NCBI GenBank assembly: GCA_017515595.1
Contig: JAFWFL010000094.1
Span: 1-60,546 of the forward strand
Length of the DNA: 60,546 bases
DNA from: Coriobacteriales bacterium
Lineage (GTDB): Bacteria > Actinomycetota > Coriobacteriia > Coriobacteriales > UMGS124
Reading direction: 5' to 3'
In this document: positions 4,965-13,378 of the stretch, piece after piece
Numbering within the stretch: position 1 is the first letter of the stretch
How the letters are laid out: each line of letters opens with the position of its first letter
Made by a program: the position numbers and the translations under genes
Notes under the pieces: model-generated
Told to the model about the DNA's origin: nothing
Seen by the model: only the letters and a program-made list of their open reading frames with translations
The model's database searches: none

Positions 4965-7367
4965 ATGAGCATCTTTGATCGTTTTAGACGTAAGGCGGTG
5001 ATTATCCGCAGAGATGCAATAGCAGCTTCTATTCTTAATCAAAGTATCGAAGAAGTGTACAGAACGCAACCGGCACTCAGAGCTTGTGTGTCGTTCCTTG
5101 CGGAGAATGCTGGCAGTCTTCCGCTCAAATGCTATGAGCGTAAAAGCGATACGGACCGGCCCCGGGTATCTGAGGGTGTTGTTCCGGCATTGCTTGCTCG
5201 GCCAAACCGTTGGGAAGCGCTGCAAGATGTTTTGGTTGGTGTATTCAGTGACTATTTACTGTATGGCTGGGCGCTTTTGTACGTGATCCCGAGCAAGGAC
5301 ATGGCAAGCGGCTGGGAGATGGTGCGTATTCCTATCCCATGGATTCAGCAGAAGGACACAGTCGATGGCTTCTCGCTCAGCAAGTACACGGTCAATAACC
5401 CCAATACTACAAGCAGGCCGGTGGATTTGAGCGCGGATGATTGCATCAGGATCGCGTCTTATGATCCACAAGGCCAAGTGCTGGCATGTTCACCGGTTGA
5501 AGCGCTGAAGCAGGTACTGGCTGAGCAAATCTCAGCATGGGACTTCAGGAATGCAACCTGGAAAAACGGCGGCAAGATTGGCGGAGCGTATCTGAAGCGG
5601 CCTCTTGGTGCTGATTGGTCCAAGGAAGCGAAGGAGCGCTTTGTCGAGTCATGGAAGAATAAGTTCAGCGGGGAAGGTGATGATACCGGTGGTACGCCAC
5701 TTCTTGAGGATGGTATGGAACTTGTTTCGATGCAGTTTAACGCGCGTGAAGCTGAGTGGGCTGAAGCTACGAAACTTGCTCGAGGCGATGTTGCAGCTGT
5801 GTACCATGTCAATCCGGCACTCATATGGCATGACCAGTCGATGACCTACGCGAGCGCAAAGGATAATGCTCGCGCTTTGTATGCTGACACTCTCGCGCCG
5901 ATCCTGTCGAAGATTGAGAGTGCGTTCAATACATTCTTGCTGCCAAAAATCGGAGCGCCCGAGAAGGAATATCTCGAGTTTGACCTGAGTGCAAAGCTTC
6001 AGGGCAGCTTTGAGGAGCAGGCACAAGTACTCCAGAGTGCTGTTGGCCGTCCTTACATCCTGCCAAATGAAGCCCGTGCACGTATGAACCTACCGAGTAT
6101 TGACGGCGGAGATGAGCTTGCAATGCCGCTCAATATGACTACGGGATCATCTGAGAACAATATTCAGGAAAATGGCGAGCTTGCCTATGTGATGCCTTTA
6201 AAAGAGGCGAGGCCGACGCTAGAAAGCCGTGGAGTCAAGCAAAATGAAGAAATCCACGTTCTAAGCAAGGCAAGCCCGTCGGCCGAACGCGATATTGCAG
6301 ATGTGCTTGATGCGTTCTATAAGCGTCAAGCTCAAAGCATAGCAAACCAGCTTGCATCTATGCCTCCCGATGAGCTTGTGCTTGATGGATACATGGAATG
6401 GTGGCATAAAGACCGCTGGGTTCGCGAGCTTTCGCACGATATGGAGAGGGTATCTTTACAGCCTGCGCATGATGCAGCGTACCAGGCACTAAGGGCTTTG
6501 GGTGTTAAACCTGATAATCCTGACTTATCTGTACTCGATACAGATATTACCAATCTCTGTGATTTTAGGGCTGACGATATTGTTCAATCAACGCTTGCCC
6601 GTGTTACAAACGATCTTAAAAAGCTCGATAGCTTAACGCCCGAGTCAATTAGGTCATGTGTTCAGGAGTCATACAAAAGCCTACAGGATGGAAGAGTAGA
6701 GCGTAATTCTCAGAGCATGGCCACGGCCATAGCGAATGCCGGTACTCACGGAGGAGCCAAGGCATCCGGTTACAAGTGCACAAAAACCTGGCGCTCTTTC
6801 CCGGGTGCCAGGAAATCTCACGCACGTATGAATGGCGAGACAGTATTTATTGATTCCAGATTCTCAAACGGTGCCCGTTGGCCTGGAGATACGAATTTAT
6901 CAGCAGAGGAATCTTGCAACTGTCGTTGTAGGATTGAGATTAAAAAAGCAAATAAGTTATTCGAAAAGCAAGTAAAAAACGATCTTGAAAAAGAGCTTGG
7001 TGATCTCGAAGGTTGCGATCCAGAAAAATACGGGGCAGCATGGAGCGGTATGCAAGTTTGCACAATACCAAGGAACAAAATTGAAAATTGGTCACTATTA
7101 GACAAAGATAAGGCTCAGGCTTTCAGACAAGCTTTAGGATATGAACAAAAAGATGCTACTCAATTGATATTTGAGCTATATACCAATGCATCACTTTATA
7201 ATCCAGAGTTCGAGTACGAGGACGAATGGGGAAAGAGATGGCAGAATATATTTGTTTTAGATGGAATTAATGATAAACGCGGATCAACTGCATCTGTAAA
7301 GGTCGGTTGGATAAAATCTTCAGATGATGATAAACTACGATTGGTCACTGCATTTGTTGATAAGTAG
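4965..7367 (+). CDS. Portal-MuF fusion with C-terminal DUF6883-like putative toxin domain
   Basis: An 800-residue fusion. Residues 1 to about 400 are an HK97-type portal, the dodecameric DNA gate of the head. Residues about 440-660 form a MuF/SPP1 gp7-like minor head domain, ending in the hallmark SAEESCNCRC (646-655). Residues about 697-800 resemble DUF6883, a small domain often found at the C-terminus of polymorphic toxin-like proteins. MuF proteins enter the head and in several temperate phages carry exchangeable toxin domains. Codons become markedly more AT-rich towards the 3' end, suggesting the last module was swapped in. The next gene resembles DUF4926, a likely cognate immunity protein. 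GAGGTGG precedes the ATG. Portal and MuF calls are firm; toxin activity is inferred. Confidence 0.88.
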   Translation: MSIFDRFRRKAVIIRRDAIAASILNQSIEEVYRTQPALRACVSFLAENAGSLPLKCYERKSDTDRPRVSEGVVPALLARPNRWEALQDVLVGVFSDYLLYGWALLYVIPSKDMASGWEMVRIPIPWIQQKDTVDGFSLSKYTVNNPNTTSRPVDLSADDCIRIASYDPQGQVLACSPVEALKQVLAEQISAWDFRNATWKNGGKIGGAYLKRPLGADWSKEAKERFVESWKNKFSGEGDDTGGTPLLEDGMELVSMQFNAREAEWAEATKLARGDVAAVYHVNPALIWHDQSMTYASAKDNARALYADTLAPILSKIESAFNTFLLPKIGAPEKEYLEFDLSAKLQGSFEEQAQVLQSAVGRPYILPNEARARMNLPSIDGGDELAMPLNMTTGSSENNIQENGELAYVMPLKEARPTLESRGVKQNEEIHVLSKASPSAERDIADVLDAFYKRQAQSIANQLASMPPDELVLDGYMEWWHKDRWVRELSHDMERVSLQPAHDAAYQALRALGVKPDNPDLSVLDTDITNLCDFRADDIVQSTLARVTNDLKKLDSLTPESIRSCVQESYKSLQDGRVERNSQSMATAIANAGTHGGAKASGYKCTKTWRSFPGARKSHARMNGETVFIDSRFSNGARWPGDTNLSAEESCNCRCRIEIKKANKLFEKQVKNDLEKELGDLEGCDPEKYGAAWSGMQVCTIPRNKIENWSLLDKDKAQAFRQALGYEQKDATQLIFELYTNASLYNPEFEYEDEWGKRWQNIFVLDGINDKRGSTASVKVGWIKSSDDDKLRLVTAFVDK

Positions 7368-8014: not shown

Positions 8015-8722
8015 ATGCCTAAGTTTAAAAACGCTGTTTTGGCATCAGAGATGACCGATGGTGGAATCGTTAAGGGATACGCTTCTACGTTCGATCGCGA
8101 ACCAGATGCTTATGGTGACATTATCGCTCCGGGTGCGTTTGCTGATTCTCTCAAGCGCTGGGCAGAGTCAGGCAAGCCGATTCCGTTGCTTTACGGTCAC
8201 AATACTGCCGATCCTGAGTACAACATCGGTAAACTGACACTTGCGAAGGAAGATGAGCGCGGTCTTTACGTAGAAGCTGAATTTGATCCTGATAACCCAA
8301 AGGCACAGTACACCCGTAAGCTTGCGCAAGAAGGCAGGCTCTACCAATTCAGTTTTGCATATGACGTACTCGACGCTGCAGAAGTTGAGATTGACGGGCG
8401 TAAGGCATTCGAGCTCAGAAAAATTGATCTGTTCGAAGTGTCGCTGGTGCAGATTCCGGCAAACCAGCATGCAGAAGTGACTGATGTTAAATCACAGAAG
8501 TCAGGGCGCAGGAATTCAAAGGCAGATGAAAAGACACTTAAAGATCTGAGAAAGCACTTAAGTGATGCATTAACGCTGCTTGATTCTTTGGATATCAGCG
8601 GCGATGCAGGCGAGGATGATTCTGAGTCTGAGGGCGGCGAGGACAACGCGAAGTCTGAGGGCCGCGAGGATGAAAAGAAGAAGCTCGCAATGTACAAGGA
8701 AATCATGAAAGATATGCTCTAA
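8015..8722 (+). CDS. HK97-family prohead protease
   Basis: A 235-residue serine protease of the assemblin-like HK97 group that cleaves the scaffold-like part of the capsid protein and itself during head maturation. Candidate catalytic residues are His62 (LYGH), Ser113 (QFSFAY) and an acidic residue near 139-141 in the DLFEVSLVQIPAN segment. The tail after about 165 is low-complexity and acidic (repeated SEGGED-type runs at 200-220), probably a self-processing segment. A GAGGAGG site precedes the ATG at 8015. The capsid gene follows after 10 bases. Confidence 0.93.
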   Translation: MPKFKNAVLASEMTDGGIVKGYASTFDREPDAYGDIIAPGAFADSLKRWAESGKPIPLLYGHNTADPEYNIGKLTLAKEDERGLYVEAEFDPDNPKAQYTRKLAQEGRLYQFSFAYDVLDAAEVEIDGRKAFELRKIDLFEVSLVQIPANQHAEVTDVKSQKSGRRNSKADEKTLKDLRKHLSDALTLLDSLDISGDAGEDDSESEGGEDNAKSEGREDEKKKLAMYKEIMKDML

Positions 8723-8732
8723 GGAGACAACT

Positions 8733-9893
8733 ATGAATTTGAAGGAAATGCTTGCGGCTGCAATCAAGAAGTTTGAAGCAGCTGAGACACTTGAAGAAGC
8801 CGAGACTGTCAAGAAGGAAATCGACGAGATCAAACAGAAGATGGCGCTTGCAGAAGTCAAGCAGAACACTCTCGCTGCTCTCGGATCGCAGAACACCGGC
8901 GGTGACAGTGTGAGCGGCAACGCACCAGCAAAGTCTCTTGGCGCCCATTTTGTGAAGTCGTTCAACGATAGCTCTGTGTATAAGAAGGGCCAGCGCTTTG
9001 ACTATGCCGCACCTGAGTACAAGGCTGCGGCTCCTCATGTAACCCCGTCCTCAATCGCTCCGGCATTGACCGATGTAGACACTAATATGGTGCTCCAATA
9101 TCGCAGGCCGCTTGTGATCGCCGATCTCTTTGGTACTGAGTCAATCAAGGGTACGTCTCTTACGTACTTTGTTGAGTCTTCCACTGTTGAGGGCGGCTTT
9201 GCCCCGGTTGCCGAAGGTGCTAAAAAGCCGATGATCAGCTTTGGAGACCCAACTGCTGTTACCGAATCACTCACCAAGATCGCAGCTTATTACAAGGAGT
9301 CTGACGAGATTATCGAGGATGCTGAGTGGCTCGCTTCCAGCATCGACAACCGAGCGCTTTACCTCTATGATCTCAAGGAAGAGGATCAGCTTCTCAATGG
9401 TTCCGGATCAAGTGGCAACATTTGCGGCATCTTGAACCGTTCTGGTATCCAGACCGCAACCTACACCGATCAGGATGATATCTTTAAGGCAATCATGAGC
9501 GTTAAGAATCAGTCGGGCTTCTCGGCTGATGCAGTTGTGATTAACCCTGCTGATTATCAGACCTTGCGCCTTAAGAAGGATCAGAATAACCAGTACTACG
9601 GTGGCGGCTTCTTCTATGGTGAATATGGAGCAAGCGGCATGGTTGAGCAGGCGCCTATTTGGGGTTTGCGCACTTTGGTAACGCCAGCTATTGCCCAGGG
9701 TACTGTTCTTGTTGGCGCCTTCCACAATGGTGCATCTGTTGTACGCAAACATGGTGTAGTCGTTGAAATGACAAACTCGAATGAAGACGACTTCGCTTAT
9801 AACCGCGTTACTATTCGTGTTGAGAATAGGGTATTGCTTGCTGTCCGTTATCCCATGGCGTTTGTTAAGCTTACCGCTTCAAACCCTCTCTAG
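8733..9893 (+). CDS. Major capsid protein, HK97 fold
   Basis: A 386-residue capsid subunit. Residues 1-50 are a charged coiled coil corresponding to the delta (scaffolding) domain; the mature shell domain starts about 65-105. The position after the prohead protease and the overall pattern are typical of HK97 capsids. AAGGAGA precedes the ATG. The gene ends with A-AAC-CCT (9881-9887), then CTC TAG, then a 10-bp stem-loop. This is a canonical -1 frameshift arrangement, and the -1 frame stays open into the next ORF. Two forms are therefore likely: 386 residues, and 511 residues with a C-terminal domain. Confidence 0.93.
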   Translation: MNLKEMLAAAIKKFEAAETLEEAETVKKEIDEIKQKMALAEVKQNTLAALGSQNTGGDSVSGNAPAKSLGAHFVKSFNDSSVYKKGQRFDYAAPEYKAAAPHVTPSSIAPALTDVDTNMVLQYRRPLVIADLFGTESIKGTSLTYFVESSTVEGGFAPVAEGAKKPMISFGDPTAVTESLTKIAAYYKESDEIIEDAEWLASSIDNRALYLYDLKEEDQLLNGSGSSGNICGILNRSGIQTATYTDQDDIFKAIMSVKNQSGFSADAVVINPADYQTLRLKKDQNNQYYGGGFFYGEYGASGMVEQAPIWGLRTLVTPAIAQGTVLVGAFHNGASVVRKHGVVVEMTNSNEDDFAYNRVTIRVENRVLLAVRYPMAFVKLTASNPL

Positions 9894-9926
9894 GTCCCAC
9901 TGTTGAGGCCGAGAGTAGTGGGACCT
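9881..9926 (+). promoter_or_regulatory. Programmed -1 ribosomal frameshift signal in the capsid gene
   Basis: The heptamer AAACCCT (9881-9887) is read in the capsid frame as tcA AAC CCT, the X XXY YYZ form. After four bases comes a perfect stem: AGGTCCCACT (9892-9901) with AGTGGGACCT (9917-9926), loop of 15 bases. The zero-frame stop TAG (9891-9893) touches the stem. No T-run follows, so a terminator is unlikely. Confidence 0.65.
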
Positions 9927-10267
9927 CATTATTCGGCGTAGCTGTTAGCAGCATGCAGTCAGGCTTGACCATTGGCGAAGGCAAGATCACCGGTACGCTC
10001 TTAAAACAGACATCCGGAGCACTTGCTGATTATTGGGGTGAAGGTTACTTCATGGCGCTCAAGTTCACCGATCCTGGCGATACCGTAACATCAATTAAGG
10101 TTGGTCTTGATCCATCGGTGAGCTCTGGTTTGGTAGAGCTTGATGAAGACATGAACGGCGTCTTTAAGGTCACTAACAAGAGCGTTCAGAAGTTTAAGGT
10201 ATTCGCACAGGATGGCGGCTCATCTTATACTCAGCTCTTTGATTTGTCCGAGTTGACGTTGTCATAA
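9884..10267 (+). CDS. C-terminal capsid extension domain reached by -1 frameshift
   Basis: The frame is open without a stop from the slippery site to TAA at 10265-10267. Its first ATG is at 9953, giving a 104-residue stand-alone ORF, but that ATG has no ribosome-binding site (the 25 bases before it contain no AGGAG-like sequence). Read as a shift product it adds 126 residues to the capsid. The sequence is beta-rich and ends KVFAQDGG...LFDLSELTLS, the style of immunoglobulin-like or decoration domains that phages attach to capsid or tail-tube subunits. Internal re-initiation at 9953 is the alternative. Such domains usually decorate the outside of the head and may bind surface glycans; that role is inferred. 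Confidence 0.65.
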   Translation, partial: PSLGPTVEAESSGTSLFGVAVSSMQSGLTIGEGKITGTLLKQTSGALADYWGEGYFMALKFTDPGDTVTSIKVGLDPSVSSGLVELDEDMNGVFKVTNKSVQKFKVFAQDGGSSYTQLFDLSELTLS

Positions 10268-10279
10268 TAGTTTTAGGCA

Positions 10280-10314
10280 GAAGAACCCCGTCATTTTGGC
10301 GGGGTTCTTGTTTT
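10280..10314 (+). terminator. Intrinsic terminator after the capsid module
   Basis: Perfect 10-bp stem AAGAACCCCG (10280-10289) with CGGGGTTCTT (10299-10308), nine-base loop, followed by GTTTT. It closes the head module; the next gene starts at 10325. Confidence 0.85.
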
Positions 10315-10324
10315 AGGAGGTGTC

Positions 10325-10504
10325 ATGCTTAAAAACTATTTGTATAGAGGTTGTCAATACCAGTTTGAAGAGGGCCAGGAGCCACAAGGTGCCGTACTGG
10401 TAGAAAAGGCATCCGGACCTAAGACGGAACAAAAGGCGAAGGAGCCAAAGAACAAGGCGCGCAAGCCTAGCACAAAGGAGCCGGGCCATGGAGATACGAA
10501 CTAA
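10325..10504 (+). CDS. Small basic phage protein, 59 aa
   Basis: An ATG at 10325 preceded by a full AGGAGG site (10316-10321) opens a 59-codon frame. The first 35 residues look folded (YLYRGCQYQFEEGQ); the remainder is lysine-, proline- and glutamate-rich and probably disordered. Small proteins of this kind between capsid and connector are frequent in siphophages and are often unannotated. It overlaps the connector gene by 17 bases. No function can be assigned. Confidence 0.65.
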   Translation: MLKNYLYRGCQYQFEEGQEPQGAVLVEKASGPKTEQKAKEPKNKARKPSTKEPGHGDTN

Positions 10505-11072
10505 TTGGGGCTATACAGCCATCTGTGAGTGGCCTGAGCTTCCTCCGCTTTTGCGAGTTGATGAGTTCTTGACGATCTCCGGGCTTGAGTATTCCTCATC
10601 AATGGAGCGCATTGCCCAAGTAATCGCTGGTGTGTCTCAAGCTGTGCGTGATTGGTGCGGTTGGCATGTAGCGCCAGCACTTGATTGTGTGTTCGTGGCG
10701 TCACCTGACGGTCATTTTGTCGAGCTGCCTTGTATGGGTGTGGTTGATGTTGAGTCAGTCACAAAAAACGACACCGAGCTTGCTTATGAGTGGCGCGGTG
10801 AGGGCCTTGTGCGTCTTGTGCGTCCTGAGTTTGGATGGCGCAGCGTTACGGTGAGATATCGTGCCGGCTACACAGATTCGAGTGCTTTGGCCATGGCAGT
10901 GGCTCAGATTGTCGAGAACAAGCTTGTTGCGGCTCCGGGAGTCCGAGAAGAACACGCAGGGCAGGTTGGGATCAGCTATAACCAGACTGCAAGCGGCGTG
11001 TCAGGTGGCGTGCGCTTGCTCGAAAGTGATTATGCGCTTCTGCAAGCCTACAGAATACCGAGAGGAGCCTAA
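10488..11072 (+). CDS. Head-tail connector protein (HK97 gp6-like)
   Basis: A 194-residue protein in the adaptor position. The N-terminal LLRVDEFLTISGLE with following helices, and a C-terminal YRAGYTD...A...IVENKL pattern, fit the gp6/gp15 adaptor family that forms the ring under the portal. AAGGAG lies seven bases before the ATG. The next gene starts directly after its stop codon, so the connector genes are translated as a coupled set. Confidence 0.8.
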   Translation: MEIRTNWGYTAICEWPELPPLLRVDEFLTISGLEYSSSMERIAQVIAGVSQAVRDWCGWHVAPALDCVFVASPDGHFVELPCMGVVDVESVTKNDTELAYEWRGEGLVRLVRPEFGWRSVTVRYRAGYTDSSALAMAVAQIVENKLVAAPGVREEHAGQVGISYNQTASGVSGGVRLLESDYALLQAYRIPRGA

Positions 11073-12117: not shown

Positions 12118-12705
12118 ATGGGATTGAATAAAGCTGATGTTTACGCTCCGAGGCCTGCTCAGTCGAGTGTTTCCGGAGCTATTGCCGTGGCGCCCGTTGG
12201 TACCACGATGCCTACTGATGCGAAATCAGCGCTTGCAAACACATTTGATGATGGCGGTTACGTAGGCGATGCAGGTATCACTCTCGGACTTAATAGGAAT
12301 ACAAATGTTATTCGTGACTGGTCTCAGGGTGTAGTTCGCACATTGCTCAACTCTTTTGACGGCACTGTTGTGGTGCCGATAATTCAGATTGACGAGTGGA
12401 GTGCAAAGCGGCTTATTGGCGATGATAACGTTGTTGTTACAGCGGCAACTACTACTGCATCCGGACAGATCAAGATGAAGATCGGTTCTCAGCTTCCTGA
12501 TCCGGAAGAGTGGGTGTTCTCAATGAAAGACGGAGACCGCCGCGTCCGCGTGATCCTGCCGGATGCATGCATCACAGCCATTGATAACGTGGCATTTGTA
12601 CCAAACGCCGTGAATAACTGGAATGCAACGCTTACCTGCTCTGAGGATGCAGATGGTTATTCCATCTACGTCATCTACGACAATGGCGAAGTGCTGAGCG
12701 CTTAG
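12118..12705 (+). CDS. Major tail (tube) protein
   Basis: A 195-residue beta-rich protein after the tail terminator and before the chaperone pair, the invariant place of the tail tube gene. The N-terminus has the tube-like pattern MGLNKADVYAPRP...GAIAVAPVGTTMPTD. The core (about 60-150) alternates strands as in the gpV/tail-tube fold. AAGGAGC precedes the ATG. The tube polymer surrounds the tape measure product. Confidence 0.85.
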   Translation: MGLNKADVYAPRPAQSSVSGAIAVAPVGTTMPTDAKSALANTFDDGGYVGDAGITLGLNRNTNVIRDWSQGVVRTLLNSFDGTVVVPIIQIDEWSAKRLIGDDNVVVTAATTTASGQIKMKIGSQLPDPEEWVFSMKDGDRRVRVILPDACITAIDNVAFVPNAVNNWNATLTCSEDADGYSIYVIYDNGEVLSA

Positions 12706-12713
12706 GAGCTTGA

Positions 12714-13004
12714 ATGTACATTATTGAACAGAGCAATATTGAGCCGTTCGAGTTCGCGAATGGCGACAAGAACTACAGTGTTCCGTCATTGCGCGGGATG
12801 AGTGTTGACGATGTTCTCGCATTTAACGAGGCATCAAAGCACAGCCGTGTTGAGCTTACTGAGTTTATGATTGGATACTTCAAGCGCATGGCTCCCGAAT
12901 CGATCGACGGGCTTAACCTGTCGCAGCTGACGGGACTTTTTAAAGCCTGGCAGGAGACCGCCGGCGATGTTGACGCGGGGGAATCGCAGGCCTCGGAGGC
13001 TTAA
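12714..13004 (+). CDS. Tail assembly chaperone, upstream part (gpG-like)
   Basis: A 96-residue acidic helical protein directly after the tail tube gene. In siphophages this position encodes the G part of the G/GT pair that coats the tape measure protein during tail assembly. The last codons contain GCG GGG GAA (12975-12983), where a -1 shift joins the frame to the next ORF, which is open from 12974 onward. Shifted translation gives about 221 residues. Confidence 0.8.
   Translation: MYIIEQSNIEPFEFANGDKNYSVPSLRGMSVDDVLAFNEASKHSRVELTEFMIGYFKRMAPESIDGLNLSQLTGLFKAWQETAGDVDAGESQASEA
12977..12983 (+). promoter_or_regulatory. Likely -1 frameshift site of the tail chaperone pair
   Basis: GGGGGAA in the frame gcG GGG GAA lies in the 31-base window where both frames are open. 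The relation of the two ORFs (-1) is that conserved in the phage G/GT pair. Confidence 0.6.
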
Positions 13005-13378
13005 TACAAAACTATAGAAGGGCAATCGGGGCTGATTTGATGGCACGTTTGGGATTACGCATCTCAGACGTGCCTTTTTCTATAGGTTGGGACGGACTTG
13101 TATTGTTTGTTGAAGGGCTCGGCGAAGACTCCGCATACTTCAGAGCCCGGAACCAGGAGTATGCTCCATGGACGAGCAAGCTCAAACAAATGCAGGTGCT
13201 AACAGATATTTACGATCTTATAAGCGCAACACGTTACAACATGATAACTCTGATGCATGCGAAGACGCAGCAGCCGCTGCCATACCAGCGCCCATGGGCT
13301 GATGACGGCAAGCAGCATATTGGTTCTGGCGGTATTCCGATCTCAGAGTTTAACGAATGGTACTACGAGGAGGTGTAA
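12980..13378 (+). CDS. Tail assembly chaperone, frameshifted part (gpT-like, DUF5361-like)
   Basis: This frame is open from 12974. In the shift product it adds 132 residues beginning with a Gly/Ile-rich stretch, then NYRRAIGADLMARLGLRISD and VPFSIGWDGLVLFVEGL, the pattern of the DUF5361-like T domain of tail chaperones. A stand-alone start (TTG 13037 or ATG 13040) has no ribosome-binding site, so expression as the GT fusion is much more likely. The T domain binds tail tube subunits and brings them to the tape measure. Confidence 0.75.
   Translation, partial: GIAGLGGLIQNYRRAIGADLMARLGLRISDVPFSIGWDGLVLFVEGLGEDSAYFRARNQEYAPWTSKLKQMQVLTDIYDLISATRYNMITLMHAKTQQPLPYQRPWADDGKQHIGSGGIPISEFNEWYYEEV

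Follow-up and report, generated by a model that had tools for sequence, protein, structure and literature searches.

A capsid gene with an open frame behind it

Can a prophage place an extra domain on only some copies of its major capsid protein by programming ribosomes to slip near the end of the capsid gene? The question is raised by a contig of a Coriobacteriales bacterium, here called the window (60,546 nt; contig 126 in a 3.3-Mb genome), the left third of which is a tailed prophage. Its genes for the portal (4965-7367), protease (8015-8722), major capsid protein (8733-9893, forward strand), head-tail adaptor (10488-11072) and tail tube (12118-12705) precede bacterial genes that begin at about 22 kb and include flavin reductases and a C69 peptidase; several FAD_binding_2 reductases are encoded on this host side (22083-60546), and one or more of them have a twin-arginine signal. 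The 386-residue capsid protein matches PF05065 in Pfam (E 4.2e-27) and the phrog_10 major head protein in PHROGs (E 9e-52), and the Phage_capsid match and the portal-protease-capsid gene order mark it as an HK97-fold major capsid protein. We propose that the end of its gene very probably programs a -1 ribosomal frameshift, and that a minority long form would add a C-terminal β-sandwich to a fraction of the shell. The reading rests on the slip site, the stem, its covariation, the conserved open -1 frame and the lack of any other start for that frame.

In its own frame, which starts at 8733, the gene ends A AAC CCT CTC TAG. The slippery heptamer AAACCCT (9881-9887, forward strand) is followed, one sense codon later, by the zero-frame stop (9891-9893) and, after a 4-nt spacer (9888-9891), by a perfect 10-bp stem, stem 1, with AGGTCCCACT as its 5' arm (9892-9901) and AGTGGGACCT as its 3' arm (9917-9926), also on the forward strand; the stem can be extended to 9904 with G-U pairs, and the minimum free energy (MFE) fold, which recovers the 3' arm, lengthens it in this way to 13 bp. 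The preliminary description had placed a heptamer at the end of the capsid gene and a perfect stem four bases behind it, and direct reading finds both there. It had also cautioned that the spacer is short: this is true of the window, but the caution weakens because the outermost A-U pair is found only there, and pairing in the conserved core of the stem begins 5-6 nt past the heptamer.

On the same strand, the open -1 frame extends from 9884 to 10267: it begins with a CCC codon, whose proline is shared with the short form, and encodes 126 new residues, passing through 22 codons between 9887 and an ATG at 9953 and then, as had been described, through a 104-residue ORF that ends at 10267. Recomputing the extended capsid predicted earlier again gives 511 residues (385 + 126; 54.9 kDa, and 41.8 kDa for the short form, before any maturation cleavage); the predicted junction joins SNP to SLGPTVEAE, and the predicted tryptic peptide across it is LTASNPSLGPTVEAESSGTSLFGVAVSSMQSGLTIGEGK. 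Between its upstream stop and the domain, the -1 frame of the window has no start codon. Directly 3' of the extension lies a strong terminator-like hairpin (10281-10315; AAGAACCCCG/CGGGGTTCTT, then GTTTT), which is missing from the pattern-scan list, perhaps owing to its 9-nt loop.

How would these elements work together? Ribosomes would arrive at A AAC CCT just as the stem, possibly part of a pseudoknot, meets the mRNA entry channel. Most would read one more codon and stop at UAG, releasing the 386-residue capsid protein; a minority would slip, both tRNAs pairing again one base back (AAC to AAA, CCT to CCC), and translate the -1 frame, making the 511-residue protein with its C-terminal β-sandwich domain. 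The long and short forms would then co-assemble, displaying the domain on a fraction of the shell subunits. We infer the shifting in the host, its efficiency, the incorporation into particles, the outward display and any binding role from this arrangement.

The window likely holds a second -1 frameshift. G GGG GAA (12977-12983) lies near the 3' end of an ORF (12714-13004) between the tail tube and the tape measure, and another ORF (13037-13378) occupies the -1 frame of the first; the pair matches the G/GT arrangement for tail assembly, which is conserved in tailed phages.

The arrangement in other phages

Searches with the 127-residue extension and with its alignments draw relatives from IMG/VR and from 29 bacterial contigs, which are mostly of ruminant-gut Clostridia, a few being Akkermansia and Bacteroidales records; the domain family is common in ruminant-gut phages. 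In the nearest capsid-bearing relatives (L002 and L003), the capsid is 64% and the extension 61% identical to those of the window, AAACCCT is followed by TAG one codon later, the -1 frame is open, and the stem differs in sequence but is complementary (GGCCGA/TCGGCC). The preliminary description had asked whether heptamer, stem and open frame are conserved together in related phages; they are, in these two loci and in about 90 further ones, with compensatory changes.

After removal of duplicates, 171 distinct junctions from viral and bacterial contigs can be sorted by reading frame: relative to a long upstream ORF, the domain is in the -1 frame in 114; it is fused in frame in 39, is encoded by a separate gene with its own start in 17, and would need a +1 shift in one (L075, excluded from the -1 set). 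Of the 114 out-of-frame junctions, 90 have an X XXY YYZ heptamer, compared with only two of the 56 copies that are in frame or separate; the junction sequences are related, so these counts are not of independent events. The heptamers are mostly A AAC CCY (44 AAACCCT and 26 AAACCCC, with 11 AAATTTA and others), six more junctions have G GGG GAA, and the zero-frame stop follows the heptamer immediately in 87 of the 114. About 18 junctions are without a clear tandem-slip heptamer, and some of these resemble single-tRNA slips beside a stop; L005, which has no clear slip site, is left out of some counts (such as the 72-locus start-codon count below) and kept among the 114 as heptamer-less. More than 100 gut phages carry the same frameshift arrangement.

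Where is the domain sparse? A viral scan with the capsid protein alone returns one locus, L006, and its capsid ends without the extension. The domain is rare in the window's class and phylum, because about 790 genomes of these yielded only the window and one weak match. Four representative domain sequences have no match in 50,697 deposited phage records although the family is common in the ruminant gut, which probably means that gene callers overlook the extension or cut it short.

The stand-alone copies begin with an N-terminal segment of their own, and most have a strong AAGGAGG-type site; as a group they have neither slip site nor stem, and they serve as natural negative controls. Examples, with a short N-terminal segment (e.g., MTVVKSLSKIAKLYNV), are L013 (2869-3360), L009, L043 and L103; the L013 domain, encoded just after the capsid gene, is a candidate for a separately made decoration protein.

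Selection on the junction RNA

The window taken by itself gives a mixed picture. Its junction folds more stably than synonymous recodings (MFE, p = 0.007), stem 1 is not exceptional against dinucleotide shuffles (z only -1.06), and an Rfam scan of 9600-10300 returns no match. The decisive evidence for a structure beyond chance is comparative and does not come from the window alone. When the encoded protein is held fixed and the junction is recoded synonymously, the mean z of the folding energies is -2.42 for 98 frameshift copies vs 0.07 for 33 in-frame copies and -0.06 for 16 separate genes (Mann-Whitney p 2.7e-15; the first pass used 55, 20 and 10 sequences). Selection on the RNA beyond the protein sequence is found only in the out-of-frame group. 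In an ungapped alignment of 56 junctions, 76% of the stem 1 cells are paired and 104 changes are two-sided; the whole structure scores 0.401 for covariation vs 0.218 for shuffled alignments (0 of 500 reach it) and at most 0.173 with slid partners. The core of stem 1 that covaries in these 56 sequences has 11 pairs, and the window satisfies 11 of 11. Slip site, downstream stem with covariation and open frame are thus all present, and the frameshift signal that the preliminary description had proposed gains support across homologous junctions from the heptamers, the synonymous codons and the covariation.

Is the stimulator a simple hairpin? We give about even odds to a refinement of the frameshift reading in which the 11-bp stem 1 is part of an H-type pseudoknot: bases in its loop (GCCGAG, 9908-9913, forward strand) would pair with TTCGGC downstream (9932-9937) to form a candidate stem 2. 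All 6 pairs form in the window (p = 0.033 against synonymous recodings with the register fixed); the 5-pair core is fully Watson-Crick in 23 of 98 frameshift copies vs none of 49 controls, and an outer pair (alignment positions 28-57) flips from G-C to C-G in seven sequences. However, stem 2 is absent from the closest relative (L002) and from several subfamilies, the window's p rises to 0.15 when the register is left free, and the encoded Ala-Glu and Phe-Gly account for part of the conservation. Because a search for a second helix in any register across the junctions gave no general signal, the pseudoknot is proposed for a subset only. In L075 and L076, stems 1 and 2 are intact (around 2986) and the upstream 361-residue ORF (phrog_4088) is in the frame that requires a +1 shift, which may mean that recoding runs in another direction there or that the sequence contains an error.

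Could the same sequence be read otherwise?

A ribosome that terminates at the TAG could in principle restart at the ATG at 9953, making a separate 104-residue protein, with the stem serving to keep the site open to ribosomes or to shield the mRNA. The ATG and its ORF exist, and other phages do have stand-alone versions of the domain, one of them just after the capsid gene (L013). Yet no Shine-Dalgarno sequence precedes this ATG, as had been reported; it lies at codon 24 of the domain, so that a restart would remove the first strand of the predicted fold, and the stretch ahead of it is conserved protein that the in-frame fusions share. With a start codon that is internal to the conserved domain and lacks a ribosome-binding site, the 104-residue ORF is probably not a separate gene. 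The true stand-alone relatives differ in their ribosome-binding sites, in their N-terminal segments and, as a group, in lacking slip site and stem. Most out-of-frame relatives have no start codon before the domain: 41 of 72 first-pass loci have no ATG, GTG or TTG in its frame, and only 2 of the 72 have a start with a Shine-Dalgarno-like sequence. Termination and reinitiation is therefore very improbable. We give still less probability to the view that the structure serves transcription termination or, as a hairpin, mRNA processing, or is a by-product of coding, and that the open -1 frame is the decaying remnant of a former in-frame fusion. Hairpins do often follow capsid genes, and here a terminator-like one follows the extension. 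But the stem itself (9892-9926) has no U-tract behind it, it is selected beyond the protein sequence only in out-of-frame copies and not in in-frame or separate ones, and the -1 frame product, at 61% identity beside a capsid at 64%, is conserved. Programmed -1 frameshifting remains the preferred reading.

A predicted β-sandwich without a Pfam family

What would the frameshift add? The extension is assigned from the open frame, the homologous junctions, a PHROGs match and structure prediction. It matches phrog_31690 (E 3e-8), a family without an assigned function, from residue 28 onward; this is the same sequence family, but the N-terminal part, where the RNA signal lies, is outside the match. 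Neither Pfam (E up to 1) nor NCBIfam contains a matching family, and a PDB sequence search with the domain profile returns nothing credible. AlphaFold2, run on a 17-row alignment, confidently predicts a β-sandwich (pLDDT 89.5, pTM 0.81) of nine strands and one short helix. Matches to PDB structures by VIA-align and Foldseek are largely FN3, PKD and Ig-like sandwiches, with Z up to 7 (below the safe level) and Foldseek E above 0.01, and the best viral structural models are uncharacterized phage proteins. The extension is thus a predicted β-sandwich, its Ig/FN3 likeness being only weakly supported by structure comparison.

Heads and tails

Which proteins carry the domain? When the upstream proteins are clustered and then named with PHROGs, the carriers of frameshift copies fall into the major head clusters phrog_10, 544, 422, 29 and 1328 and into protease-capsid fusions of phrog_3270; others are a small protein encoded directly after a protease-capsid gene (L004) and a phrog_2729 virion protein. 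The head-protein clusters do not align with one another at the cut-off used, and about ten distinct ones carry the domain with the purpose-built signal. Among head proteins, 107 copies are frameshifted and 17 in frame; among tail proteins, one is frameshifted and 17 are in frame (Fisher p 9e-12, computed without correction for relatedness, the set of independent pairs numbering only four). The sole tail-protein copy in the -1 frame (phrog_158, L191, around 1823) has the shift site GGG GTAG, which suggests a single-tRNA slip beside the stop. Single phages, at least L110, contain two copies of the domain (L110 at 4986 and 7398; L040 and L046 at 786 and 2986): one copy is frameshifted onto a head protein and the other is fused in frame to a major tail protein.

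The domain is too short for a well-resolved tree. The large head families do not form single clades in it, from which we conclude that the domain has moved between head-protein families. One and the same domain, with the signal in its own first 20 codons, is attached to many different head proteins, its tail versions being nearly always in-frame fusions. We favor, with some reserve, the view that it is a mobile recoding cassette: its first 20 codons would encode the stimulator of the slip site, a new and unrelated head protein would gain dosage control and partial-shell display along with it, and selection would hold the domain out of frame on heads and in frame on tails, making the choice between frameshift and fusion functional and not accidental.

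Relation to known systems

That phages add immunoglobulin-like domains to head and tail proteins by frameshifting, on which the preliminary description relied, is well established (PMC5009743; PMC3185693; PMC8718954). A close parallel is Lactobacillus phage A2, in which a -1 shift in the major head gene adds an Ig-like C-terminal domain to some subunits (Garcia et al. 2004, as described in PMC5009743). The window shares with A2 the -1 shift in the major head gene and the C-terminal domain on some capsid subunits, both predicted here; unlike A2, compared through that description and not letter by letter, it has a domain without a Pfam family and a signal inside a domain common to many head-protein families. 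In T7 and T3, capsid gene 10A/10B also yields a minor frameshifted form, about 10% in T7 and Ig-like in T3 (PMC3185693; PMC5009743), that co-assembles with the major one, as is proposed here from sequence; theirs is a podovirus capsid with another extension, which in T7 is about 52 residues long and not Ig-like. Listeria phages PSA, A118 and A500 have frameshifted structural proteins with a proline CCC codon at the shift, as in the window, and a pseudoknot in the PSA capsid gene (PMC5009743), but the shifts there are +1 (PSA capsid, tail genes), whereas the window has its domain in the -1 frame, with tandem slippage implied. In SPP1, a frameshift likewise appends a domain, in this case FN3, to a quarter of the tail tube subunits (gp17.1/gp17.1*; PMC8718954); SPP1 gp17.1 is a tail protein, whereas 17 of 18 tail versions of the present family are in-frame fusions. 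The kind of event is thus known from A2, T3 and SPP1, while the domain, the self-carried signal and the head/tail split appear to be new; we found none of the three described in the searchable literature, which is weak evidence as subscription papers lie largely outside it.

Why, then, are some domains attached in frame and others out of frame? The recoding review reports the suggestion that, for phage Ig-like domains, this is a matter of chance landing (PMC5009743). A purpose-built signal found almost only on the head-protein copies of one domain family now makes that question testable. A further use of the cassette could be as a natural tool to display a protein on a fixed fraction of capsid subunits. 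For the phages themselves, the domain seems to be required on heads at a low dose, and tail tubes seem to tolerate it on every subunit.
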